Shown: piece by piece, positions 10,806 to 48,539 of the stretch
Numbering within the stretch: position 1 is the first letter of the stretch
How the letters are laid out: every line of letters starts with the position of its first letter
Assembly (NCBI GenBank): GCA_943736015.1
Contig: OX031071.1
Location: 33,016,619 to 33,080,618 of the forward strand
DNA: 64,000 nt
Direction: 5' to 3'
Origin: Tridacna crocea
Lineage: Eukaryota > Mollusca > Bivalvia > Cardiida > Cardiidae
Position numbers and translations under genes: made by a program
The notes under the pieces: generated by a model
What the model was told of the DNA's origin: nothing
What the model saw: only the letters and a program-made list of their open reading frames with translations
Databases searched by the model: none

Positions 10806-12345
10806 TCTAAAAGTTTCGAAGTTTGAATATCACTATGCGTTTCAGTTTTCGGGGGTTTAATACATGTATCAACGTGCACTTCAGGTTTTGGTAAAAGTTG
10901 GTATCAACGTGCGTTTCAGTAATCAATATCACCGTGCGTTTCGGTTTTCGTGTGTTTAATACATGTTTCAGTTTTTCGTAAAACTCGGTAACTGTTTGTG
11001 CGTGCGTTTCAAAAATCGATATCACGTGCGTTTCGGTTTTCGGGTGTTCAATACATGTAACAACGTGCGCTTCAGTTTTTGGTAAAAGTCGGTAACTGTT
11101 TGTGCGTGCGTTTCAGTAATCAATATCACCGTGCGTTTCGGTTTTTGTGTGTTTAATACATGTATCAACGTGCGTTTCAGTTTTTCGGGTGTTTAATACA
11201 TGTATCAACGTGCGCTTCAGTTTTTTGTAAAAGTCGGTAACTGTTTGTACGTGCGTTTCAGTAATCAATATCACCGTGCGTTTCGGTTTTCGTTTGTTTA
11301 ATACATGTATCAACGTGCGTTTAGGTTTTCGTGTGTTTAATACATGTATCAACGTCCCCTTCAGTTTTTGGGTGTTTAATACATGTATCAACGTGCGTTT
11401 CAGTTTTTCGGGTGTTCAATACATGTATCAACGTGCGTTTCAGTTTTTCGTAAAACTCGGTAACTGTTTGTGCGTGCGTTTCAGTAATTACTATCACCGT
11501 GCGTTTCGGTTTTCGGGTGTTCAATACATGTATCAACGTGCGCTTCAGTTTTTGGTAAAAGTCGGTAACTGTTTGTGCGTGCATTTCAGCAATCAATATC
11601 ACCAGGCGTTTCGGTTTTCGTGTGTTTAATACATGTATCAACGTGCGTTTCAGTTTTTCGGTTGTTGAATACATGTATCAACGTGCGTTTAGGTTTTCAT
11701 GTGTTTAATACATGTATCAACGTGCGCTTCAGTTTTTCGGTTGTTGAATACATGTATCAACGTGCGTTTAGGTTTTCATGTGTTTAATACATGTATCAAC
11801 GTGCGCTTCAGTTTTTTTTTGTAAAACTCGGTAATTGTTTGTGCGTGCGTTTCAGTAATTACTATCACCGTGCGTTTCGGTTTTCGGGTGTTTAATACAT
11901 GTATCAACGTGCGTTTCAGTTTTTGGTAAAAGTCGGTAACTGTTTGTGCGTGCGTTTCGGTAATCAATATCACCGTGCGTTTCAGTTTTTCGTGTGTTTA
12001 ATACATGTATCAAAGTGCGTTTCAGTTTTTCGTGTGTTTAATACATGTATCAACGTGCGCTTAGGTTTTCGTGTGTTTAATGCATGTATCAACGTGCGCT
12101 TCAGTTTTTGGGTGTTTAATACATGTATCAACGTGCGCTCCAGTTTTTGGTAGAAGTCGGTATCACCGTGCGTTTCGGTTCTCGTGTGTTTAAGTATTCA
12201 ATATCACCGCGCGTTTCGATGTTCGGGTGTTTAATACATGTATCAACGTGCGTTTTAGTTTTTTGTAAAAGTCAGTATCATCGTGCGTTTCGGTTTTTAT
12301 GGGTTTAATATATGTATCAACGTGCGTTTCAGTTTTTGGTTTCTG
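10806..12345 (+). repeat. 1.5-kb minisatellite of GTGCGTTTC units
   Basis: Dozens of units mixing three blocks: GTTTAATACATGTATCAAC, GTGCGTTTCAGTTTTTCG, and GGTAACTGTTTGTGCGTGCG with a following ATCAATATCACC block. Units of about 40-100 bp are shuffled into higher-order patterns. Few stop codons occur on either strand, so long repetitive frames appear in several registers, but none has a credible start or protein domain. I treat the array as non-coding. Confidence 0.9.
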
Positions 12346-29294: not shown

Positions 29295-29458
29295 GCTGAC
29301 CAATGAGAATGTGGAATATTACCAAAAATGTACCATGAAATGACAGACCTACCAAGAATTGACCAATCAGCGTACAAGCTACTACCAAAAAATCAACCAA
29401 TCAAAACTGACCAAAGCAATCAAAATTGAGCGGCCATATTTGATTTTGTTTTTGTTGA
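29295..29458 (+). promoter_or_regulatory. candidate host promoter with three CCAAT boxes
   Basis: CCAAT at 29301, 29363 (in GACCAATCAG, a good NF-Y match) and 29397, followed by GAGCGGCCATATTTG. Without the retrotransposon, the sequence would continue directly into 40642-40662 and a GTAAAG donor at 40663. That resembles a TATA-less promoter plus a short first exon. No downstream coding exon could be assigned, so this is inference from motif spacing. Confidence 0.35.
29455..29458. repeat. target-site duplication TTGA (left)
   Basis: The same four bases occur at 40638-40641 immediately after the 3' LTR. The boundary can slide by up to 3 bp, because 235 bp are shared. Confidence 0.75.
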
Positions 29459-29690
29459 TGTTGTGGAATTCCCCAAACTTCTAAAAATACCCCTAGTACC
29501 CCTGGCCCCTGAATCGCTAAGGAGAACCCCTGTTCCCGCGCGATAAGAGAGAATTCATTCAACACGAGACGTTCAAGAAGTGCAGTAGCAAAATACCAAC
29601 AAACGTCTGACTACACTATAATTAACGAAGACGCCGTTTGGAATCGCCAACAGTAAGTCCTTTGTGATAATTATAGTAATTTAGACAATA
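29459..29690 (+). repeat. 5' LTR
   Basis: 232 bp, starting TGTTGTGG and ending TTTAGACAATA, so the termini TGTTGT/ACAATA are an imperfect inverted repeat. It is identical to 40406-40637 by eye. It contains a TATAATTA-like box near 29615 and a strong splice-donor core GTAAGT at 29653. Confidence 0.95.
29651..29660 (+). promoter_or_regulatory. candidate 5' splice site in LTR
   Basis: ACA|GTAAGTCC, with the GT at 29653-29654. It would supply a donor for spliced leader RNAs. Candidate acceptors lie at 30804-30806 (TTAGTTACAG, upstream of gag) and 37070-37071 (upstream of ORF3). Confidence 0.5.
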
Positions 29691-29691
29691 T

Positions 29692-29704
29692 TGGCGTTGT
29701 CGGC
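29692..29704 (+). other. primer-binding site
   Basis: TGGCGTTGTCGGC starts 1 nt after the LTR. It begins TGG, as needed to pair with a tRNA CCA end. The complement resembles the 3' end of a serine tRNA, but the tRNA was not verified. Confidence 0.65.
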
Positions 29705-31114
29705 TTTTTGAACCATTGAATCATCGCAAAAACTTGGGAACTTCCAAAGCTTTTTTGGTGTCGCCAGCTGTCGAACAGTCGGAGTTAGTCCCTTCGAGGC
29801 TGGAAACATTGACAGGTTTTGATAGATCCTAAATCGTCCTTTGTATTAATATTCTGCCTACGCGTCTTATACACGCGTTGCGGCTTGAATTAGCGGTAGA
29901 AGGTTGATGTAAAGGATTGTTAAGGGTCGAAGATCTTATCGATTTAGTAGGGCAGTGATACGATCTCGCTACGCTTCATTATTTCGATAACGGTTTTCAT
30001 CGGTTTTGCTCGCGATTTCGCTTGATTTACTGAATTGTGATTCGGGTGATATCGTTCGCTTGGATTCGGAAACGTTTTTACCGACTTTCGATTAACGGAT
30101 CGCGATTTTGAAATTTTTTGTCAATATCTCCAAAATTCTCAACAAGTCAAAATTCGCCATTTTGGATAGAAATTTATTTCCGGCATCGTCGCAGAAACTT
30201 GCGCAGACGCATTTTCCCGCGCGTTAATTCACGAGACCGGAAACGGCTAACAAACACGGAAGTACACAGACTTTGCCTGAATCGAAACGATTTCTTGTCA
30301 CTGTCACTGTTTTTTCCAAACTTTTAAGACTTTTGGCAATTGAAAATTAATTTATTTGACTAGCCCTTCAGTATTGTATTTAGATTTGTGGTCAAACACT
30401 TTAGTTTCGCTTGTATTATTAAATTTAGCTGAGATAAATCATTGAGAAATTGACAACCACAGGTCACTTTATTAAATAATAAAGTCAATAATAAATAAAT
30501 AATAAATAGATAAGCTCATTTCCCTGGGGCTATATTTCAGACAAATTAATACTTAACACTTTGGAGTTAGTGACTGGCAGTTCCATAACTTAGTACTTAT
30601 TCATCCACTTAGTAACTTTTAAAAATTAATAAAAATAAATAAGAAATAAATCATTTAATAAAATCTTTCAAACACTTCGACATTAGCTTCCCTGATAACT
30701 TGAGCAATTGTGGTAGGTTAATTCCATTCACCTTTCCTTACTAGATCTATTTAATCAGTGTTTGACCATAGATTGTTGTGCATTTTAATTAAAATACTTA
30801 GTTACAGGCTGGCAGCAGAGACCATAACTTCAAGTTACTTGTGTCTCTTGATGTGAAGCATCAATATTAGAGCCAAGAGACCACAAACAAAAAAGTTTGC
30901 TGTGTTTCTCGGTTTCTATATATACACCGGACACGACATACAACCTTATAACCCAGTAATTACTTAGGCTGGAAATATCTGTTTGTACAAAAGTACCACA
31001 CCCGATTGATAAGACCTCAAATTCCAAATTTGTAGAGTCTTTCAGTTTTAATAGAAAACTTTAACTTAATACTTCTCGCTTAAGCGTTCACACGCCTCTA
31101 ATTATAAGTGAACA
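29705..31114 (+). other. retrotransposon leader
   Basis: A 1.4-kb untranslated region with no convincing ORF. It contains a CG-rich stretch (TCGCGATTTCG and similar) at 29940-30300 and a possible acceptor at 30806. The packaging signal would be expected here but is not recognisable. Confidence 0.6.
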
Positions 31115-32728
31115 ATGGAGCTGATAAAAATCAATTGTTGTTCAGCACGGGATCTGGAGCTAATCCCGGGTGTAGGAACCAAAATTGCTGAGAAAATACT
31201 GGCAATAAGAGACTCGTACGGAAATATAACACCTGAAAAATTCTCGACTCTGGGAATAAGGGATTTGCCTCTAGCCATGAGCAGAGTAGACTTTCAACCC
31301 TATGTTCCCACACATTCACAAACCTGGTCCAGTTCTACTCAAACACAAGCGGATTTTACACATGACTTAGATAGAACTCAAGAGTTCATGGATAACACAT
31401 TGAAGGTTATTCATGAAAGGCAATCACAGGCTAATGTGTCACAGGCAGGTGACCGATTGGACCGTATCTATCGCCCTGAACCACAGATAGAGCTACCTGG
31501 ATCCATGAACAGACAGGTGCAGTCCCCTCCGTACAGTTATACGACCAGGCAGGGCACATATTCAGACAGTCGAAATGATTGGCGCCAAGATCAGAGGGGA
31601 GATTATAGGAAAATAATGCAGGATCATAGGTATGGACTTGCATATGGGCAGCATCCAGGGACCCAAATCAATGAATTTGTGCGTCCGAGTGGGTCATTCC
31701 CATCTCACAGTGTCGGACCACAGGCATTTGACCAAGTGCGTTCACCAATGAAGTTGGAATTGAGGGATCCTTATGTATTTGGGAATCTTAGAACCAAATC
31801 CGTCAATATCCCAAAGTCAATTACATATGATGGAAAATCAGATTGGCGTGCATTCATAACAAAGTTTGCCACTTATGCGGACAGGGAGGGCTGGAATTCC
31901 ACAATAAGACGTGATGTGTTGTCATGGATTTTGGAGGGGAAGGCCAGTGAATTTTATTCTCGTCTGGTGGAAAGAGACCCATATATTGATTATTTCGAAG
32001 TGGTGAATAGACTGGCCAAGAGATTTGATATTAAAGACCTGCCAGAAACAATTCAAATGCATTTCACATATGCTACCCAACATCAAAAAGAAAGCTTGGT
32101 TGAATGGAGTGACCGGGTAGTAAACATGGCAATGCAGGCATATCCTGACCTGACTGACAATCAGATTTACAAGCAGGCTGTTTTAAGATTCTGCCAAGGC
32201 TGTTTGGATAAAGAGGCAGGGCTTTACGCTATCAACCAAAGGCCCCAATCTATCGAGGAAGCTATTGATCGTGTTAGATGGTTTCAACACACCAGCCAGG
32301 CAGTATACGGTAGATCGAGAAAAGAAATAAGAAGCATTTATGAGCCAGATCTCGATCAAGAGATCCGAGCAGCAAGGCCATCTCCAAACTCTGAAAGAGA
32401 ATCCAAAAAACAGGTTCATTTTCAGGAGCCTGTGGGACAAACGATATCCGAGTCCCGATTAAGTCAAAGAATGGACGAATTGGAACAGAAAATGACTCAA
32501 TTAACTGAATCAGTGGCTACTCTGACGATGGCTGTGAAAAGGAGAGCACGTTCACCGATAAGGAATAAAACATGTTTCAATTGCGGTAAAGAAGGTCACT
32601 GGAAAGCAGACTGTAAAGCCGAAATTAAAAATGAGGCCAAGAAAGTGTCGGCAGTGTATGACCCACTCCTTGACGAAGAGAGTGATGAGTCAGAGGAGGC
32701 TTTAAACGAAGATGGGTCGGAGCAATAG
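31115..32728 (+). CDS. gag: Gag with N-terminal helix-hairpin-helix
   Basis: 537 residues. Residues 5-57 form a ComEA-type helix-hairpin-helix: INCCSARDLELIPGVGTKIA, then KILAIRDSYGNIT. This motif normally binds DNA non-specifically and is unexpected on a Gag. Residues about 230-410 are the capsid-like helical region (YDGKSDWRAFITKFATYADR, later VEWSDRVVNMA). A coiled coil lies around 455-475 (MDELEQKMTQLTESVATL). The nucleocapsid CCHC knuckle C-x2-C-x4-H-x4-C is at 487-500 (CFNCGKEGHWKADC). The acidic tail EESDESEEALNEDGSEQ encodes the frameshift site. The start ATG follows a long leader. Gag would form the particle and package RNA. The HhH might help bind cDNA or chromatin (inference). Confidence 0.92.
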   Translation: MELIKINCCSARDLELIPGVGTKIAEKILAIRDSYGNITPEKFSTLGIRDLPLAMSRVDFQPYVPTHSQTWSSSTQTQADFTHDLDRTQEFMDNTLKVIHERQSQANVSQAGDRLDRIYRPEPQIELPGSMNRQVQSPPYSYTTRQGTYSDSRNDWRQDQRGDYRKIMQDHRYGLAYGQHPGTQINEFVRPSGSFPSHSVGPQAFDQVRSPMKLELRDPYVFGNLRTKSVNIPKSITYDGKSDWRAFITKFATYADREGWNSTIRRDVLSWILEGKASEFYSRLVERDPYIDYFEVVNRLAKRFDIKDLPETIQMHFTYATQHQKESLVEWSDRVVNMAMQAYPDLTDNQIYKQAVLRFCQGCLDKEAGLYAINQRPQSIEEAIDRVRWFQHTSQAVYGRSRKEIRSIYEPDLDQEIRAARPSPNSERESKKQVHFQEPVGQTISESRLSQRMDELEQKMTQLTESVATLTMAVKRRARSPIRNKTCFNCGKEGHWKADCKAEIKNEAKKVSAVYDPLLDEESDESEEALNEDGSEQ

Positions 32729-35697
32729 GCCTTCCCCCGACCCAGAATGATCGTTACACTGGCCTATATCAACTCGAAGAATTTAAGCCTGTGGACAATC
32801 AAGGGGTAGCCAATGCAGAGCAATTAAACGAAGAGACCAGGGTAGATACAAATCAAGATGATTACACGAATTATCACGATACAGGAAAGTGGAGTCAATC
32901 CTTATCTCAAATGACCCCGCCTGCTCAAGAAATTAAACCGTGTGTCCTTGAATCTACCATCACAGCTGGTGAAGATAAAGGCAAAGAGGTGTCTCATAGG
33001 GATACCCAGGTCTTATCTGCAGAGGAGATAGACATCCAAAAAGAAGAAACTGGGGAAGAAGAACCAGTTGTATTACAGTTGCGTTCTGGTCCAACATACA
33101 CAATTCCTGTTATAGTGAATAAGGTAAAGGTGTCAGCTGTTGTCGATACTGCAGCTCAAGTCACCCTGATTTCAGACAAGGTGTTGGAACTTCTGGATCC
33201 CCAACCTATTAAGATTAAAGATATAAGTCTCCAAACAGCTGGTCGAGAAATGAAAATGAAAGGTCATGTAGTGGGACCTGTTGAAATACATTTAGGGAAC
33301 AAAATCTGCAGTGAAAATGTGTATGTAGCACCCATTCAAGATGAAATGTTATTGGGGTTAGACCTGCTCAAAAAACACTGTGACCAGATAGAGTTGGTTA
33401 GCAACACACTATTTATAAATGGTAAATCCATAAAGATGGAAATGACAGATTCAAAGGCGGATGCCCAAATGGTTGTAATACGTCGTACGATAATACCCCC
33501 GAACTCTGTAAAGTTGGTGCCGTGTGAAACAAAGGCCAAGGCAGAAAATTTCATGTTTCAACCAAAAGATAATTTGCCAGTATTAATTCCCAGATCTGTG
33601 CATACTAAGGACCAGCCGATCATGATATGTGCGGTTAATGTGTCCAACAGTAATGTCACCTTGCAAGCTAAGCAATCAGTGGGAAGGACAGAGAATGTGG
33701 CTATCGTGAATCAGCAGTTAGACTTAGAACCTGCTATAGATACAACCAAGGCAGCAGAAGTTATACCAAATAAAGAAGAGCAACCTGTTCCAGAACATCT
33801 GAAAGAAATGTTGCAGAACTCAAAAGAACATCTGACAAAAGCTCAACAAGCTCAATTAACAAAAGTAGTGATTGAGTATCAAGATGTGTTTGCCAAAGAC
33901 GACTTTGACTTGGGAAATTTCACCGCCATAGAACATTCAATAGACACGGGGGATGCCCGACCTGTTAAACAGAGAATGAGGCGTACTCCAGTATGTTTTG
34001 TGGATGAAGAGAAGGCAAACTTGGATAAAATGTTGAATGCCAAGGTAGTTGAGCCATCGACATCCGAATGGGCTTCAGCCCCAGTGTTGATAAGGAAACG
34101 TGACGGCCAAGTACGTTGGTGTGTTGACTACCGGGCATTAAATGCCGTCACCGTGAAGGATGTCTATCCACTACCCTTGCTGGACGAGTGCATGGATACT
34201 CTTGCCGGAAGTACGTGTTTTTCAAAATTAGATGCAAACTCGGCATACTGGCAAGTTCCGATCAAGAACTCAGATAGAAAAAAGACGGCATTCATAACCA
34301 AGTATGGTTTGTTCCAGTTTGTTCGGATGGGTTTCGGACTCTGTAATGCTCCAGCCACCTACAGCCGAATAATGAATTTAGTGCTTCGCGGACTTAATTG
34401 GAACACAGTGCTCGCTTTCCTGGATGATATCATCGTGATGGGGAAAAACTTTGACGACCACCTAGTTAATCTAGAAGATGTGTTGAAAAAGTTCAGAGAT
34501 TATGGCCTTAAACTGAAACCAAGAAAGTGTGAGCTGTGTAAGCCAAAGGTGAAATTTCTAGGGCGATGGGTAGGTGAAGAAGGCCTTCAACTTGATGAGC
34601 AAAACATCAAAGATGTTAAAAATTGGCCTCAGCCAACAACAACTAAACATGTTGAACAATTTTTAGGGCTACTGAACTACCATCGAAGTTTTATTAAAGA
34701 CTATGCACGGCTAGCAGTTCCTCTATACGAAATCACAGGAAAGCAAAGATTCAGATGGAACAAAGAACAGGAAAGAGCATTCCAACAGATCAAGAAAGCC
34801 CTTACCGAAGCTCCTGTTCTGGCTTGGCCCAACCGACATGATACATTCATTTTGGACACAGATGCTTCCGATGTGGCCATAGGTGCGGTAGTGTCACAAT
34901 TACAGAATGGTCAAGAACGGGTCATAGCTTATGCTAGTTTTGGACTCTCTCCTGAGCAAAGGAGATATTGTACCACTCGAAAAGAATTGTTAGCAGTGAT
35001 TCGATTTACCAGACAGTTCAGACATTATCTGTTGGGGCGCCCATTTGTAGTCCGTACTGACCACAGTAGCTTAACCTGGTTGCTTAATTTCAAGGAGCCA
35101 CAAGGACAGATAGCACGATGGTTAGAAGAATTGAGTCAGTATGACATGATCGTGACACATCGTCCAGGAAAGAAGCATTTGAATGCTGATTGTATGTCCC
35201 GGAGACCTCATCCTGAAATGGGTTGCAGAGATTTCAAATTGGGAGTGAAGCTAGAGGACCTGCCCTGCAAGGGATGCCATTATTGTGCAAAAGCTCATGA
35301 AGATTGGGATGAGTTTGTCACAAAAGTGGATGATGTGGTACCTCTGGCACAAAGTGCTCGAAGTAAAAGGGAGATGAGGCAGCTACGAAAAATAGTGTTG
35401 ACAGACCAGACTCCGGAATGCTCAGAAATCAGTGTCAGTAGCATTGAACTTGTGACCAAAAGTGATGGTTGTGAGTTTTTTATTCCAAGCGTGAATGAAA
35501 TTACTGAGGTGAAGGAGACCGATATGGTTGATTGGGCAAAGGAACAGAGGGATGACCGAGACCTCACAATCATATTGAAGTATTTTCAAAATGGTAAGGA
35601 ACCCACTGAAGCAGAACTTTTTCTTGAAAGCCCAAGTTCTAAGTACATGTGGATAGATAAAGAGAACTTTTGTCTCCAACAAGGTGTACTCTATTGA
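32689..35697 (+). CDS. pol: Pol part 1: protease, reverse transcriptase, RNase H
   Basis: Open from 32689 in the -1 frame, so translation should enter by frameshift and no start codon is needed. Numbering is from the GTG at 32791. The retropepsin-like protease has VVDTAAQVTLIS (Asp119) and MLLGLDLL. In the reverse transcriptase, Asp481 lies in FSKLDANSAYW and the catalytic FLDD is at 543-546 (AFLDDIIVMG), with typical Gypsy blocks VDYRALNAVT and GLCNAPATYSRIM. RNase H starts at LDTDASD (Asp691) and continues through RKELLAVI, TDHSSLTWLL and HRPGKKHLNADCMSR. A CKGCHYC cluster follows, then a linker. The frame ends in TGA at 35695-35697, before the integrase core. The same frame continues openly after it, so this is one interrupted polyprotein, not two genes. 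Confidence 0.93.
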   Translation, partial: VRGGFKRRWVGAIGLPPTQNDRYTGLYQLEEFKPVDNQGVANAEQLNEETRVDTNQDDYTNYHDTGKWSQSLSQMTPPAQEIKPCVLESTITAGEDKGKEVSHRDTQVLSAEEIDIQKEETGEEEPVVLQLRSGPTYTIPVIVNKVKVSAVVDTAAQVTLISDKVLELLDPQPIKIKDISLQTAGREMKMKGHVVGPVEIHLGNKICSENVYVAPIQDEMLLGLDLLKKHCDQIELVSNTLFINGKSIKMEMTDSKADAQMVVIRRTIIPPNSVKLVPCETKAKAENFMFQPKDNLPVLIPRSVHTKDQPIMICAVNVSNSNVTLQAKQSVGRTENVAIVNQQLDLEPAIDTTKAAEVIPNKEEQPVPEHLKEMLQNSKEHLTKAQQAQLTKVVIEYQDVFAKDDFDLGNFTAIEHSIDTGDARPVKQRMRRTPVCFVDEEKANLDKMLNAKVVEPSTSEWASAPVLIRKRDGQVRWCVDYRALNAVTVKDVYPLPLLDECMDTLAGSTCFSKLDANSAYWQVPIKNSDRKKTAFITKYGLFQFVRMGFGLCNAPATYSRIMNLVLRGLNWNTVLAFLDDIIVMGKNFDDHLVNLEDVLKKFRDYGLKLKPRKCELCKPKVKFLGRWVGEEGLQLDEQNIKDVKNWPQPTTTKHVEQFLGLLNYHRSFIKDYARLAVPLYEITGKQRFRWNKEQERAFQQIKKALTEAPVLAWPNRHDTFILDTDASDVAIGAVVSQLQNGQERVIAYASFGLSPEQRRYCTTRKELLAVIRFTRQFRHYLLGRPFVVRTDHSSLTWLLNFKEPQGQIARWLEELSQYDMIVTHRPGKKHLNADCMSRRPHPEMGCRDFKLGVKLEDLPCKGCHYCAKAHEDWDEFVTKVDDVVPLAQSARSKREMRQLRKIVLTDQTPECSEISVSSIELVTKSDGCEFFIPSVNEITEVKETDMVDWAKEQRDDRDLTIILKYFQNGKEPTEAELFLESPSSKYMWIDKENFCLQQGVLY
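32701..32767 (+). promoter_or_regulatory. -1 programmed frameshift signal
   Basis: Slippery heptamer T TTA AAC at 32701-32707, exactly in the gag reading phase, 18 nt before the gag stop TAG (32726-32728). After a 5-nt spacer comes stem 1, TGGGTCGG (32713-32720) with CCGACCCA (32737-32744), 8 bp and perfect. Its loop segment ATAGGCC (32725-32731) is perfectly complementary to GGCCTAT (32761-32767), giving a 7-bp stem 2 and hence an H-type pseudoknot. The open pol frame begins at 32689, so the shift joins gag to pol. Confidence 0.88.
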
Positions 35698-37056
35698 AAG
35701 AAGAAAGACGGAGGTTTTCAGAGAGTAGTGCCCCAATCTTTGAAACAAAAGATTTTGGAGGTACATCACGATCTTCCATCTGCGGGACATCAAGGCCCTG
35801 AAAGAACTAAGCTTAAGATAATTGACAAGTTCTGGTGGCGTTCAGTAAACAAGGATGTAAAACGGTACATTGCTGCTTGCAGTATATGTAACAGAAATAA
35901 AAAACCAAACAGACATGCAAAAGCCCCAATGACCAACTACCAGGCAGGTGCCCCCATGGAACGAGTTCATTTAGATTTTCTGGGCCCACTACCGAAGACC
36001 CCACAAGGGAATGAGTATGTTCTCATGATGGTTGACCAGTTTACCAAATGGGTGGAATGCATACCTTTGCCCTCTCAGACTGCTGAAGTTACAGCACATG
36101 CGGCAGTCATGGAATTTTTTAGTCGTTTTGGATGCCCTTTCCAAATTCACACGGATCAAGGACGAAATTTCGAGAGTAACCTCTTTCAAGCGGTTTGCAA
36201 GCTCTTGAAGATCCACAAATCAAGGACCACACCGTACCGACCATCCGCTAATGGACAGGTCGAACGGTATAACCGTACTTTGATGGATGCGGTGCGTTGC
36301 TTTGTGTCCTCCCAGAATTCATGGGACAAATTTTTACCACAACTAGCTGGAGCCCTTAGATCTTGTGTGAATCGACAAACTGGTTTTACAGCAAATAAGC
36401 TGATGCTCGGGAGAGAAACCAATCAACCTGTGGATTTGCTGTATCCAGATCCAATCAGACTACAAAAGTATGGCAGCCCGGAGCAATATGTTGCAGATTT
36501 ACAAAGATCCATAGAATACGCACATAAAGTTGCTAGGGAAAAACTGGGCGCGGCTCAAAAAATCATGAAACGGGATTACGACACTAAGATCCTGGTGAAG
36601 ACATTCCAAGTAGGCGATGCGGTGTACATTCTGGACACTGCAACGATAAAAGGAAAGAGCAGCAAACTTAAAGCTCCTTGGAAAGGACCAGGCATTATTG
36701 TGGAAAAATTTTCGAATGCGCTGTTTAGAATCCTGGTAAAAGAAAAAGACTTTGTGGTGAATCACGACCGAATCAAATTGTGCACTGACAGATCGCTTCC
36801 ACAGTGGATAAAAAGACTAAAAAATGATCCCAAACTAATTGAGTCCCTGCTAGAACAAAAAAGAAACTCTGGCGGTGCAGAACAAAGGTATTGTTTATGC
36901 AGACAACCAGATAGTGGCGAGTTCATGATTCAATGTGACTTTTGTTTAGAGTGGTACCATGGTCCCTGTGTAAACATTACCCCCGAAATAGGAAATAAGC
37001 TTGATAAGTATGCGTGTCCGGTGTGTGAGAAAGATCTTAATTCCGGACCGAAATAA
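35698..37056 (+). CDS. pol: Pol part 2: integrase with C-terminal PHD finger
   Basis: Same frame as part 1, separated only by the TGA. The first ATG-independent codons encode the HHCC zinc-binding region (His13/14, His21, then CSIC, Cys51/54, numbering from 35728). The catalytic core is DD35E: Asp83 (HLDFLGP), Asp143 (IHTDQG), Glu179 (NGQVERYN), with 35 residues between the last two. The GPY/F-type module WKGPGIIVEKFSNALFRIL follows. Residues 388-436 form a C4HC3 PHD finger: CLCRQPDSGEFMIQCDFC, EWYHGPC, CPVC. PHD fingers of this type often read histone H3 K4 methylation. Here it takes the place where chromoviruses carry a chromodomain, so it may guide insertion. The stop is TAA at 37054. Confidence 0.93.
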   Translation, partial: KKKDGGFQRVVPQSLKQKILEVHHDLPSAGHQGPERTKLKIIDKFWWRSVNKDVKRYIAACSICNRNKKPNRHAKAPMTNYQAGAPMERVHLDFLGPLPKTPQGNEYVLMMVDQFTKWVECIPLPSQTAEVTAHAAVMEFFSRFGCPFQIHTDQGRNFESNLFQAVCKLLKIHKSRTTPYRPSANGQVERYNRTLMDAVRCFVSSQNSWDKFLPQLAGALRSCVNRQTGFTANKLMLGRETNQPVDLLYPDPIRLQKYGSPEQYVADLQRSIEYAHKVAREKLGAAQKIMKRDYDTKILVKTFQVGDAVYILDTATIKGKSSKLKAPWKGPGIIVEKFSNALFRILVKEKDFVVNHDRIKLCTDRSLPQWIKRLKNDPKLIESLLEQKRNSGGAEQRYCLCRQPDSGEFMIQCDFCLEWYHGPCVNITPEIGNKLDKYACPVCEKDLNSGPK

Positions 37057-37057
37057 T

Positions 37058-37073
37058 TATTTTTATTTCAGCA
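37058..37073 (+). promoter_or_regulatory. splice acceptor just before ORF3
   Basis: TTATTTTTATTTCAG| with a strong pyrimidine tract and CAG at 37069-37071, then CA and the ORF3 ATG at 37074. This placement strongly suggests ORF3 is made from a spliced subgenomic RNA, as env genes are in retroviruses. Confidence 0.65.
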
Positions 37074-40000
37074 ATGAGTCACCAATCATATAGGAGAGGA
37101 GTCCGGGATCCCAGGCAGCTGGTATATGAGATCCTGTCGACCCCCCAGAGATTGGACACACAGGGGTTCTTAGCACTTGTCAGGGGCCAATATGAAGATG
37201 CCATTGAAAGGAGGGACCAGAACTATATCCGGGATTTACAACGGGAGTGTGCCGGAGTAGCCATGTCAGAGGAAGAGGTTCTGCGTTTCCTTCCAAACCC
37301 TTATGGCAGGAATTTTAGGTCTGCGCCCAGGAGACGGCCATTATCGGACCACAGTGGAGAAACACAGGTCATGTGTCAGGATATCCGTCTGCAAGACAAT
37401 CCTGACCTACCTGTAATCAGGAGAGATGCAGCAGGAGGTGCCCCGGGTACAGCGGGAACTGTGACCGACACCCTTGTTGCTGGATCAGAAAAGAGAAGTG
37501 TTGAGGGCTCAGCGTGTCGAACCCAATCGACCGGAGCTCCAGTGCTACCAATACCTGCCGAACAAGTAAGAGACTTCCCGTGTCAACAATCTTTGACCGG
37601 AGTCCAAACGCTACCAATATTGACAACTGAGTATCATCGTAGTGAACCGGGAGCCCAAATTAGGTCAAGACCTGAATATCGGGGGAGCCAGAGACCTAAT
37701 TCTAGGAGTTCCGGACACTACCGTAGTAGACATCAAGCGCCATCCCGAACAACAGACCGGGATAGGTCAGACGGACGATCTTCAGTTGAGAGAATTTCAT
37801 CCATGATTTTCTACAATCGGCGCTCTCAGTTGGATAGATCTCACAGCCCTGACCGATCCGAGTACCCTAGACGTCCATACCAATCCGCCCAGAACGTCCA
37901 AGACGGGAAAGAAACGAGACGTTTTAGAGGCCCCCAGATCCACACAGGGAGAAACAAGTCTGTGCCCGATATAGCTATCACAATAGCTGGAAATCAAAGA
38001 GTGGTAGGTGGCGAACGAGGGGTAAAGAGAACCAGAGAAGAATCACCTCATCAAAGAAGTCGGCCATCAAAGAGGAAGGTCTGTCCAGTTAGAGGATGTG
38101 GAGCGCCTGTCGGAAAACTAAAGCAACACTTACAGCAGGTCCACATCCCAGGACTCTTTCACGACGGAGAGACCCCCGCTGAACTGGCTAACTCCCAGTT
38201 CCAATCCCTGAGACGACATGCTTTGGAGATGATGTCAAGGTTCCTGTTCGGAAGAGAGGGCACAGTGAATGATCTCATGGACCTGGTGAATGAGGAATCA
38301 GATATCACGGATGCGAACATTACATCTGAGACCCAGCAAGCCATGGAAGCACTAGCTTGGGAGTCCAGGTGGAGAAGGCCCAGAACATTTTCTCTGGAAC
38401 CAGTCAACTCGCCCGCTGCCCTTATTCATTGGCGTCCATTGAGCTTTATTATAAGTCTTCTGTCGACGGCTCAGAGGGAAGAGATTTTCAAACTATTTGG
38501 CGAACGGTGGACAGTACCTATCGCAGAGGAACAAAAAGATAAAAAATCTCGTAGATACTGCAGGCCAAACCCTTCAAGGAGGAGGAGGAGAAGAAGAGCA
38601 AGAGAAGAGGAGAAGGAAGAAAGAAGGCAACATGGTAGTCAAATGGAGGATGATGCTTCTCAGACCATCCACAGGAGACAGGAGATAACCATGGTGCCTA
38701 GAAGAGAAAAAAGCCCATCTACGAGAGACAAAGAAGACACACAAAAAGATAAACCACTGGGGAGCCTTACATTCAGTAGAAGACTTTCACCAATTCCAGA
38801 AGAAGATCCAACTAGTCAAACAGACCGAACCCAACCAAAAGACAATAAATCTCTATCAAAAGTGGGTGCACGAGTCTGCTTAAAACAAGGATCCAAAGAA
38901 GTCGGCACAAGTCAATTATCGATGCAGAAGTTTAACTTGACCACAGAGATGATGCTGACCCTGGAAAAGGACAATAGTCCAGAGTTGGATTATGAAGGTA
39001 CCCCAAGTCCACAAAAGTCCACCATATCAAGTCCATTGGATGAAGAGTCATTATTGAAGTCTCCATCATCGACTCAAATGGAAGTGGTGGATAAGGTAAA
39101 TGAGGACCCAGCTTCCGTAGAAAGTTCAGGTATGTCCTCAAACCAGATAGAAGAGAGTTCAGCTGTACAGCCAATGGCAGAAATGGAAAAGAGCCATACT
39201 GAGGAAAAAACCACAGTAGAAAGTGACTCTTCCTACGCTGAAGTCTTAAGAACCAACCTACCAACTAAAGAGCAACTTGGGACCACGGCCCTGACTTATG
39301 CAGAGGTTTGTGCGTCCAAGCCAAAAACTAGTTCACCAGTTGGGGTGGTAAAACCCAGGACTTTGAGAGATACCAGAAACGACCAGAACAAAGCCTTTGA
39401 TAGCCATTTCCACTGGGACCGCCTTTGCTGGAATCTAAACTATGCTGAATTGGAAGAATCAGCCATTTATCGCCATGCAGAGGTTTCCCCAAGAGTTCCA
39501 GTAGAGTTATCGGGGGGTGTTATGATATTTTGCGATCCGGCTGGATACAAACATGTACCTAACAGGACGGATCCCAAATGGAGAATATCTGTAGGTGTTC
39601 ATCCGAAGAAACTTAAAGACTTGACACCTCCTAGGCTTCAACATCTGCAAAGTTTATTGCTCCAACCTAGGGTAGTGGCTTTTGGAGAAATTGGTCTCGA
39701 TTATAGTGAAAGTGACACTGACCGGGAACGACAAAGGGCCAAACTTGAGGAGCTTCTTTCCCTGTGTTCTCCCAGACACGTGTTAGTGTTGCATATCAGA
39801 GGAAACAAGAAGGAACATATGTCGGAACAAGCCTTTAAAGATTGTTTTGAATCTGTAAAAAAACACGTTCCAAGGGACCAGCGGATCCACCTCCACTGTT
39901 TCTCGGGAGGCCTTAATCAAGTAACAAAATGGAGTGAAGCCTTTCCAAATTGTCACTTTGGATATACCGGAAAAGTAGCCCGCTTCATAAAATCCCAAAG

Positions 40001-40220
40001 GGAAGCTGTTCGTCGGGTGCCGATCGAGCGTCTTTTGATAGAGACGGACTCCCCTTATCTACCAGTGCATGCCGGGCAGAAAATTAATACCCCCGTGTAC
40101 CTAGGGGACGTGGCGAATTTGGTCGCTTCCATCAGACAGGAGCCAGTAACCCAAATTTTGCATCACACAGAGCGTAACGGCCGGATACTGTATCCACCAT
40201 ATATGGAAGGGCAAAGTTGA
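37074..40220 (+). CDS. ORF3: zinc finger plus TatD-type nuclease
   Basis: 1,048 residues in the -1 frame relative to pol, 17 nt after its stop. Residues 1-90 are a helical basic region. About 90-330 is arginine/serine/proline-rich. A C2H2-like finger lies at Cys337, Cys342, His352, His357 (KVCPVRGCGAP, KLKQHLQQVH). A helical segment follows (about 365-505), then a polybasic stretch (PSRRRRRRRAREEEKEERR, about 510) and a long acidic/Ser-rich tract with two TYAEV-like motifs. Residues 774-1040 are a TatD-family TIM-barrel hydrolase: SHFHWDRL (His778, His780), VGVHPKKL, FGEIGLDYS (Glu872, Asp876), VLHIRG (His907), HLHCFSGG (His941), IETDSPYLP (Asp992). All expected metal ligands are present. TatD enzymes are metal-dependent nucleases. 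Animal TATDN2 also has a long disordered N-terminus, so capture of a host TATDN-like gene is likely. No signal peptide or membrane segment is seen, so it is not an envelope. Confidence 0.92.
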   Translation: MSHQSYRRGVRDPRQLVYEILSTPQRLDTQGFLALVRGQYEDAIERRDQNYIRDLQRECAGVAMSEEEVLRFLPNPYGRNFRSAPRRRPLSDHSGETQVMCQDIRLQDNPDLPVIRRDAAGGAPGTAGTVTDTLVAGSEKRSVEGSACRTQSTGAPVLPIPAEQVRDFPCQQSLTGVQTLPILTTEYHRSEPGAQIRSRPEYRGSQRPNSRSSGHYRSRHQAPSRTTDRDRSDGRSSVERISSMIFYNRRSQLDRSHSPDRSEYPRRPYQSAQNVQDGKETRRFRGPQIHTGRNKSVPDIAITIAGNQRVVGGERGVKRTREESPHQRSRPSKRKVCPVRGCGAPVGKLKQHLQQVHIPGLFHDGETPAELANSQFQSLRRHALEMMSRFLFGREGTVNDLMDLVNEESDITDANITSETQQAMEALAWESRWRRPRTFSLEPVNSPAALIHWRPLSFIISLLSTAQREEIFKLFGERWTVPIAEEQKDKKSRRYCRPNPSRRRRRRRAREEEKEERRQHGSQMEDDASQTIHRRQEITMVPRREKSPSTRDKEDTQKDKPLGSLTFSRRLSPIPEEDPTSQTDRTQPKDNKSLSKVGARVCLKQGSKEVGTSQLSMQKFNLTTEMMLTLEKDNSPELDYEGTPSPQKSTISSPLDEESLLKSPSSTQMEVVDKVNEDPASVESSGMSSNQIEESSAVQPMAEMEKSHTEEKTTVESDSSYAEVLRTNLPTKEQLGTTALTYAEVCASKPKTSSPVGVVKPRTLRDTRNDQNKAFDSHFHWDRLCWNLNYAELEESAIYRHAEVSPRVPVELSGGVMIFCDPAGYKHVPNRTDPKWRISVGVHPKKLKDLTPPRLQHLQSLLLQPRVVAFGEIGLDYSESDTDRERQRAKLEELLSLCSPRHVLVLHIRGNKKEHMSEQAFKDCFESVKKHVPRDQRIHLHCFSGGLNQVTKWSEAFPNCHFGYTGKVARFIKSQREAVRRVPIERLLIETDSPYLPVHAGQKINTPVYLGDVANLVASIRQEPVTQILHHTERNGRILYPPYMEGQS

Positions 40221-40405
40221 AGCCTGGTTCGTACTTGGACCGCCGACTTCCCTTGTGTGATTAAAGAAACGGTAACTTGCATTCTTCATATGCAAATCTG
40301 AGATTGTGTCCCATCCAGGACCACCAGATTATACTAGGTGATGAGTCTATTGAATAAGATCGGATTCAGCTAGCAGACCACCGGATTCTATAAAATGGGG
40401 GGGAG
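40221..40405 (+). other. retrotransposon 3' untranslated region and polypurine tract
   Basis: A short non-coding stretch ending in the polypurine tract AAAATGGGGGGGAG (40392-40405), directly before the 3' LTR, as required for plus-strand priming. Confidence 0.85.
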
Positions 40406-40637
40406 TGTTGTGGAATTCCCCAAACTTCTAAAAATACCCCTAGTACCCCTGGCCCCTGAATCGCTAAGGAGAACCCCTGTTCCCGCGCGATAAGAGAGAA
40501 TTCATTCAACACGAGACGTTCAAGAAGTGCAGTAGCAAAATACCAACAAACGTCTGACTACACTATAATTAACGAAGACGCCGTTTGGAATCGCCAACAG
40601 TAAGTCCTTTGTGATAATTATAGTAATTTAGACAATA
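40406..40637 (+). repeat. 3' LTR
   Basis: Identical to 29459-29690 over all 232 bases by eye. It has no AATAAA, so the polyadenylation signal is not obvious. Confidence 0.95.
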
Positions 40638-41607
40638 TTGACAACGAAGGGACTCGAAACAGGTAAAGTGTTTGATTTTTGTTTTGATGTTGTTTTAATG
40701 TTGCATCTAAGATACGATCGTATAGTCTGTTAGAAACTGACCCAAACTAACAATATTTCACAGGTAGATTTGTTTTTCTGGTTCTCTTTCCAATAGTTTT
40801 TTTAGCGCTTCAAGGCCGATCTGACCTAGTTTCAGTGTTGTTAATTTTGTTAATTCTCACTTAAATTGCGTACATAGAGCGAAGTTTTTTGGCTTGTCTG
40901 TGATTTTTATAACTTCTATTATCATTTTACTACTTGGAAGTTAGTCAATATCAGACTATATTTGTTGAAAGATCATTGTTTAGTCTGAATTAGAATGTAC
41001 ATGTAGGTACATGTAAGGTGGGTGAGAAAGTGCAGTTTCTCATTTTTCTGTGACATAAATGTGATAGGCTCAAATCTGCTGTTGATATTTAAAGCAGGCG
41101 ACAAAAACAAAGAATGAAGAAAGAGTGCATGTATACAGACACATCAGTCTCCACTGTGAAGCATGCATTTCAAACATTCGGTGAAGTATAAGATTAGACT
41201 GCTGAAGTAAATCAAAGGAAAAAAGTTTGCCTGACTCGAAACCACAACCGCCCTGAACGCTAGTACTGCAGCTCTACGGACGAAGTTAGCCGCGAGCATC
41301 TGGTCATAAGTCTACCAATATCAATTTCACCATTGCTCAGGACATTTCGATAAATTATATCTGTACTACTGGCCTAAATTAGATCCAGTTGCATAATTAA
41401 ATGTATCTTAAGTGATTAGACTTTATCTCTCAGGGACAGTAGCCAAAAAGGTGTGAAATTGTAAAATTTAATCATTATCATATTATTTAGAATTACTGTC
41501 AATATTGTGTAGATGATAATCTTTTATCGTGTCTTCCGTGCAAGGGTTAGTGCTTGCAGAAAAATGAATTCCAGAATCAGTCAAAAATAAAGGATGACTT
41601 GGCCATT
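40638..41607. other. flank of insertion, possible end of interrupted first exon
   Basis: Right TTGA duplication at 40638-40641, then CAACGAAGGGACTCGAAACAG|GTAAAG (donor GT at 40663). The rest is AT-rich without a recognised exon. Confidence 0.35.
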
Positions 41608-42060
41608 TTAACCCCTTTACCACAAAATCCCTACTTTTAACGACCCTGAGAAAGAGAACTTTGGAAAACATCATGGGAGAAGGAGGAATTCGTGATAACC
41701 AGCATTTTCTCCTTTACCAATAATGTTTTCTAACCTTTCAAAGATGAATTTCAATTTTTGAGTCACATTTATGTTGTTGTCTGTGAACGTTTTTCAATTT
41801 GGACAAGTCTAAAATTTTGTTGTGTGCTAGAGTTAACCCATTACCAAACAACAATATTTTAGACTGGTCCAAATTGAAAGCATTTGCAGACGACAAAATA
41901 AAAGTGATTGAAAATTTGAAATTTGTTTAGTGAAGGGTAGAAAACATTGTGGGAAAAGGAGAAAATGCTAGTTACCATTATTTCTCCTTTTCCCACAATG
42001 TTTTCTAAAGGCTTCTTTCTCAGGGTCATCAAAAGTAGGGATTGTGTGGTAATGGGTTAA
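41608..42060. mobile_element. two TTAA-hairpin MITEs sharing one TTAA
   Basis: 41608-41836 (-) and 41833-42060 (+) abut head to head and share TTAA at 41833-41836. The second has a good hairpin lacking a few loop bases. It ends TGGTAATGGGTTAA. Confidence 0.85.
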
Positions 42061-48066: not shown

Positions 48067-48539
48067 TCTGTCAACTAAAGAGGTAAAAACCAGTGTATTT
48101 GTCAAGTAACTACTTATGACAAAGAATACCAATAGAAGTTTCCAATCCAAGCCCTTACAGAAACAGAAGTAAATTTAATTAGAAAATTGCTGTTTTCTAA
48201 GTACAACTTTAAAACTTCCATGTTGTAAATGGTAAACATATTCACTCAAGCAGTGAAAGATCCAGGTTCAAATCCTGGTGGAAGTAAGAGTTGGAAAAGA
48301 TTCCAGTTATTCCAGAAATTAAATAAGGATAAAAGATAAAATTGTACATATTTTCTTATTAAAATTGGCTTATTTTATGATATAAGTTTCCTTTTCTTAA
48401 TTACACAGCTTTTTTTAGCTGAAAAACAGCACAAAAACACAATTTTCATGAAAAAAAAGGCACTTTCAGGTTTTCTTTTACAGAGGTCAATGGGTGCAAA
48501 TTCTTGGTTAATTCTTGGTAGCGTAACAGAGACTAACAG

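Follow-up and report, generated by a model that had tools for sequence, protein, structure and literature searches.

A TatD-family nuclease encoded as the third gene of Ty3/Gypsy-type retrotransposons in the bivalve Tridacna crocea

Why would a long terminal repeat (LTR) retrotransposon carry a nuclease gene after pol, in the position of env? The question is raised by an element at positions 29459 to 40637 of a 64,000-nucleotide stretch of Tridacna crocea DNA, here called the window (GenBank assembly GCA_943736015.1, contig OX031071.1, positions 33,016,619 to 33,080,618 of the forward strand; G000:C16:33016619-33080618 in our numbering of this 1.05-Gb genome). We regard it as nearly certain that the element is a recent insertion of a Ty3/Gypsy-type retrotransposon, of a clade whose hallmarks are a PHD finger on the integrase and a third open reading frame (ORF3) for a TatD nuclease. 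Like other Ty3/Gypsy elements (Metaviridae), it has LTRs, a short target-site duplication, a tRNA-Ser primer binding site, a polypurine tract, gag, a −1 frameshift signal, and pol domains in the order protease, reverse transcriptase, RNase H, and integrase; unlike them, it bears the PHD finger at the integrase end and the TatD ORF3 (Table 1). A preliminary description, made from the sequence alone, had called the element young; its LTRs differ at 0 of 232 bases, and a TTGA duplication lies on both sides.

The same description placed a TatD hydrolase domain with all six metal ligands at the end of ORF3, and here Pfam, alignment, and predicted structure agree. Pfam TatD_DNase matches residues 832 to 1040 (E value, 7.7e-36; 124.2 bits against a cutoff of 27), and H778, H780, E872, H907, H941, and D992 are all present in the window copy. 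In a 50-row alignment, H778, H780, E872, and H941 occur in 50/50 rows, H907 in 48 (2 have Tyr), and D992 in 48 (2 have gaps). AlphaFold2 returned three confident domains (residues ∼10 to 80, 332 to 478, and ∼773 to 1040) separated by mostly low-confidence linkers; Foldseek matched the predicted ORF3 model to solved TatD enzymes, and in this model the C-terminal domain is a TatD barrel. Within the middle domain, C337, C342, H352, and H357 are identical in 44/44 aligned rows. A seven-arginine run past this domain could be a nuclear-localization or nucleic-acid-binding patch. The ORF3 ATG lies 18 bases past the pol stop. As had been noted, ORF3 occupies the env position without membrane signals: no membrane-type segment was found in the window's ORF3, where the best 19-residue hydropathy is 1.24. 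Stretches of 19 residues with a hydropathy of ≥1.6 do occur in 11 of 44 other ORF3 relatives, and their position suggests that they sit in folded domains.

ORF3 is neither missing from other copies of the element nor a one-off join. An LTR search found pairs on C4 (L019) and C1 (L022) that enclose the same element with ORF3, flanked by 4-bp duplications of GATG and AAAG, respectively. Five parts of the window copy, from the protease to the 3′ LTR with gag left out, are 99.6 to 100% identical to those of the two siblings. Pol of the window copy is not intact, being broken by an in-frame TGA at 35695 to 35697. This TGA is absent from both siblings read: pol is open across this part in L019 (1,455 codons covered) and open at the TGA position in L022 (1,412 codons), and a length difference in the integrase-PHD part of L022 ends the frame before the PHD finger is complete.

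A TatD profile search of the genome gave 74 matches, some of which are host exons or fragments; counts from the genome searches are lower bounds. We examined the 20 best-scoring of the 73 matches besides the window's own, which are therefore not a random sample. All 20 loci had a TatD domain and the zinc-finger-like domain, 19 had a PHD match, 18 had an integrase match (one of only 42 amino acids), and 16 had a reverse transcriptase match; nothing was found upstream of ORF3 in L011. Six families can be told apart among the loci: that of the window (L019 and L022); L009 to L011; L012 to L016 plus L023; L017, L018, and L024 to L027; L020 and L021; and L028. One copy was checked for each of the other five families, and in all of them (5/5) the same gene order lies within an LTR pair of 98.7 to 100% identity; target duplications of these five were read by eye, and the AAGA of L017 is the least clear. 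Reverse transcriptases of members of the other families are 64 to 71% identical to that of the window. In a seventh family (L038), whose LTRs lay outside the search, the TatD domain is full and free of stops in 9 copies. We also noted that ∼1.5 kb of flank behind the 3′ LTR of L012 recurs upstream of its 5′ LTR at 99% identity (L012/L031), and part of this flank is ∼84% like a flank of L027. Three TatD matches on C5 (C5:464631, the first in L041; C5:475145; and C5:485324) resemble a last exon, lie ∼10 kb apart on one strand, and are perhaps tandem host genes.

The TatD domain looks to be under purifying selection. The ratio of nonsynonymous to synonymous substitution rates (dN/dS) for TatD was below 1 in 12/12 within-family comparisons (0.12 to 0.67), which share reference copies, hold few changes, and include two loci (L010 and L011) with one TatD stop each. 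When three families contributed one pair each to a pooled test, p ranged from 1.2e-5, the most favorable of 50 pair choices, to 0.063, with a median of 0.003 and values below 0.05 in 47/50 choices. For the part of ORF3 before TatD, two pairs gave dN/dS values of 0.45 and 0.40, from 5 and 17 changes. The preliminary description had argued for selection from an intact frame between identical LTRs; the frame is a weak argument in so young a copy, and it is the direct dN/dS test, with its few changes, that favors the claim.

The PHD finger resembles known readers (best E value, 1.4e-12, by PDB sequence match), and we take the proteins named for it in Table 1 to be readers of trimethylated lysine 4 of histone H3 (H3K4me3). 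The coupling of integrase and PHD finger extends beyond this genome, because 93 of the best 120 of 1,576 integrase relatives, counted by hand, carry PF00628; those among the best 120 with a PHD finger include proteins of Mytilus, Pecten, Mercenaria, Plakobranchus, Anneissia, and Procambarus. L039, a less closely related Gypsy family in this genome (reverse transcriptase identity, 54%), has an integrase, and no PHD, middle-domain, or TatD match was found in the 5.5 kb examined. Among the best 120 integrase relatives, three Mytilus entries carry the name “COMPASS component SPP1”; they match the integrase-PHD region of the element and look like retroelement genes.

A protein search with the TatD region of ORF3 gave 50 proteins, of which P0004 to P0047 were aligned as ORF3 relatives. 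Those named are from Dreissena, Mytilus, Saccostrea, Ruditapes, Pinctada, and Pecten and from the sea urchin Lytechinus, and a domain search (best 120 of 7,547) adds Ostrea and Mizuhopecten. The relatives thus span eight named bivalve genera and sea urchins, as proteins rather than in their genomic surroundings; one of them, P0024 of Mytilus edulis, joins a retroviral-type protease and TatD within one record. Because the sea-urchin rows nest in a bivalve-containing clade of the tree described below, the association either is old or has moved between phyla. Bacterial metagenome-assembled genomes (MAGs) of Sedimenticola and Thiodiazotropha also yielded proteins named TatD hydrolase or integrase (P0005, P0006, P0009, P0058, P0244, P0248, and P0255), which are probably animal-host retroelement sequences.

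We asked where the TatD domain came from using a hand-chosen, 48-row tree (19 of the 44 proteins P0004 to P0047, 3 later matches, 7 rows from this genome, 14 bacterial, 4 other, and 1 host row). The ORF3 TatDs form one side of a branch with support of 100/99, apart from the host row. The motif [FY][CS][DE]P occurs in 29/29 ORF3 rows, 0/14 bacterial rows, and 3/4 other rows. Two of these three, P0076 and P0078, which combine a zinc knuckle with TatD and which we take to be TATDN2-like, read FCDP, presumably a TATDN2 trait. An intron-bearing TatD gene of the host (L040) looks similar in the exons covered, a part that does not reach this motif. TATDN2 is an animal R-loop nuclease. ORF3 shares with it the TatD domain and the motif as seen in P0076 and P0078; it differs in being 31% identical to P0078, in having other N-terminal domains and a single open frame, and in being carried by a retrotransposon. 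The motif contrast (29/29 against 0/14 bacterial), read with a tree that holds no verified TATDN2 reference, points to an animal TATDN2-type ancestor and is not proof of one. L020 pairs with L038, and L009 with L028, in the integrase tree as well as in the TatD tree; at moderate supports, these two shared forks favor the view that ORF3 has traveled with pol.

The explanation that we consider best overall, at roughly even odds (∼50%), is that ORF3 is a trans-acting nuclear RNA/DNA nuclease of TATDN2-like descent that stands beside a PHD integrase. Starting from the observed gene order, ligands, selection signal, and deletion derivative (see below), we infer a substrate, a place, and a timing. 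Descended from a TATDN2-type animal enzyme, ORF3 would be produced from its own message or via reinitiation, enter the nucleus, and bind nucleic acid through its zinc-finger-like domain. There it would digest the RNA in RNA:DNA hybrids, or 3′ ends, and would serve all copies of the family in trans. The PHD finger would bring integrase to H3K4me3-marked promoter chromatin, where R-loops are common, and the task of the nuclease may be to remove hybrids from the target or from the DNA about to be inserted. This specific role is offered tentatively. More doubtful is a broader picture, in which the integrase of an old animal retroelement clade would read H3K4me3 and be coupled to an R-loop nuclease that the element itself encodes, hybrids would be removed before integration at active promoters, and nuclease-less lineages would use the protein of their siblings.

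Several observations weigh against this reading. Fold comparison of the middle domain gave no clear match. The TATDN2 link comes from a motif, a midpoint-rooted tree, and partial host exons, and the single host row does not show [FY][CS][DE]P (0/1), the motif region being outside the exons covered. A second motif, HCF..W..FPN, is found in 23/29 ORF3 rows and in the host row and not in P0076 or P0078. The sole row that the database names TATDN2, P0072 from a scallop, falls inside the ORF3 clade, and we read its name as wrong for that reason. A smaller tree of 8 rows joins the host row to ORF3_L012, although weakly (78/73).

The remaining contrary evidence comes from copies that have lost ORF3. 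A reverse transcriptase search listed 150 matches, 62 of them at ≥60% identity: 33 of the 62 have a downstream TatD match (some are fragments), 22 have a shared ORF3-deletion pattern, and 7 have neither. In one family, at least 31 places match the deletion query across its junction, at least 25 of them over the whole length at ≥92%. A TatD domain that is complete and free of stops occurs at 9 places, so the deleted form is the commoner one; the full-TatD copies match only separate pieces of the junction query. Two deleted copies were read directly (L036 and L037). The TatD remnant of the deleted form corresponds to residues ∼136 to 240 of a 277-residue TatD piece, and the HxH and Glu regions are gone. 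Because the derivative occupies at least 25 places against 9 full-TatD copies, ORF3 is dispensable in cis, and an essential role in cis is unsupported. Between deleted and intact forms, the synonymous divergence (dS) is 0.05 to 0.08 for integrase-PHD and 0.27 to 0.29 for the TatD remnant; the 3′ part therefore has a separate, older history and came, most simply, by recombination. The remnant has a dN/dS of 0.44 to 0.45 against the intact form (p values of 0.025 and 0.039), a value that mixes time before and after ORF3 loss and does not demonstrate neutral evolution.

The chief rival to the nuclear RNA:DNA nuclease is an accessory or counter-defense role, which is possible but on the whole unlikely: ORF3 would degrade host nucleic acids (small-RNA precursors or sensed hybrids) or blunt silencing and would be useful during invasion and losable once the element is established. 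Conservation across families with loss in one amplified lineage is the pattern of an accessory gene, and the absence of a membrane-type segment from this ORF3 fits an intracellular role. TatD dN/dS was, however, above 1 in none of the 12 comparisons, and it is the pre-TatD part of ORF3, with its few changes, that leaves room for such a role. That ORF3 is a core replication enzyme, trimming complementary DNA ends or removing primer RNA, with the deleted copies as parasites complemented by intact siblings, is improbable. The conserved ligands and the siblings with a full, stop-free TatD in the same genome are as it would predict, but the deleted form is the more numerous, the distant family L039 manages without an ORF3 match in the stretch examined, and RNase H normally removes primers. 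A chimera or assembly join that set a host TatD gene beside a retrotransposon is barely credible, although the host has an intron-bearing gene of this kind, and is refuted by repeated LTR-bounded copies with 4-bp duplications and the same order on several chromosomes and in several families; the host row of the 48-row tree also stands outside the group of ORF3 TatDs.

The coordinates of all features are collected in Table 1. The 5′ LTR end at 29690 follows from two other copies, in which the 3′ LTR matches bases 1 to 232 of the LTR and no more; an LTR length of 235 bases was rejected, the repeat being the 232-bp LTR plus three chance bases. The primer binding site starts one base past this end, and tRNA-Ser priming is a trait of the Mag clade. 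In gag, the helix-hairpin-helix at 31121 to 31228 scored just above the cutoff of PF12836, and such a start is, to our knowledge, unusual in gag. The gag/pol overlap is out of frame in this copy, and the TTTAAAC heptamer is found in the overlap of L012 and L020 as well (presence only, not phase).

Table 1. Features of the retrotransposon, in window positions
Feature	Position	Strand	Basis or remark
Left target-site duplication, TTGA	29455..29458	+	Duplication compared with right flank
5′ LTR, 232 bp	29459..29690	+	Identity to 3′ LTR; end set by other copies
Primer binding site, TGGCGTTGTCGGC	29692..29704	+	13/13 complementary to 3′ end of host tRNA-Ser(AGA), CCA added
gag ORF, 537 amino acids	31115..32728	+	Helix-hairpin-helix start, CCHC zinc knuckle; Retrotrans_gag match below Pfam's cutoff
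TTTAAAC in −1 frameshift-site phase (T TTA AAC)	32701..32707	+	Within gag/pol overlap
pol part 1: protease, reverse transcriptase, RNase H	32791..35697	+	Ends at in-frame TGA
pol part 2, same frame: integrase (H2C2, rve) and C-terminal PHD finger	35728..37056	+	Pfam domains
PHD finger	36892..37026	+	Best PDB matches PHF2, CXXC1, PHF8, DIDO1, BPTF; lower down Spp1
ORF3, 1,048 amino acids	37074..40220	+	Open frame; frame already open from 37041
N-terminal helical domain, residues 10-80	37101..37313	+	AlphaFold2; block pLDDT (predicted confidence score) 86-95
Middle domain, residues 332-478: zinc-finger-like plus helices	38067..38507	+	AlphaFold2 and alignment
Seven-arginine run, residues 502-508	38577..38597	+	Sequence
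TatD nuclease domain, residues 773-1040	39390..40193	+	Pfam, ligands, predicted structure
Polypurine tract, GGGGGGGAG	40397..40405	+	Adjoins 3′ LTR
3′ LTR, 232 bp	40406..40637	+	Identity to 5′ LTR; LTR matches in other copies
Right target-site duplication, TTGA	40638..40641	+	Same letters as left

Elsewhere in the window, an inverted repeat with 108-base arms (76% complementary) lies at 41686 to 41984, ∼1 kb 3′ of the element. A large tandem-repeat array at 11020 to 12338 has units of ∼39 to 40 bases and periods of 145 and 368 bases, and a tRNA-Leu gene with anticodon AAG is at 48214 to 48286.

No description of a TatD-bearing LTR element was found in the literature searched, which consisted mostly of titles and the opening lines of abstracts, with Repbase and subscription journals outside its scope. 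A mollusc survey reporting 21 Gypsy clades has no occurrence of TatD or PHD in its main text by term search (PMC6238403), and the PHD finger mentioned in another paper belongs to a host gene near an insertion (PMC3286476). Like the env-bearing Gypsy elements (errantiviruses, Cer, and Tas), the present one has a third ORF after pol; unlike them, it has a nuclease in that place, with no membrane-type hydrophobic segment in the window's ORF3. More than one Gypsy lineage is described as having an env-like third ORF, several being so listed (PMC5962544). The family with deleted copies also resembles env-less endogenous retroviruses in that a third gene was lost in the lineage with more copies; it differs in having lost a nuclease gene, whose product siblings may supply in trans. 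Such env-less retroviruses have reportedly spread widely.

Where a Gypsy element has a third gene, it is mostly known to be env-like; here a conserved nuclease with relatives in bivalves and sea urchins takes that place. The results suggest a retroelement origin for several mollusc proteins that bear the name TatD and for some of the TatD proteins in symbiont MAGs. The presence of TatD-bearing and ORF3-deleted siblings in one genome makes the role of ORF3 directly testable. If the finding is upheld, LTR elements of animals would have taken up a host enzyme of the genome-maintenance type and kept it under selection.

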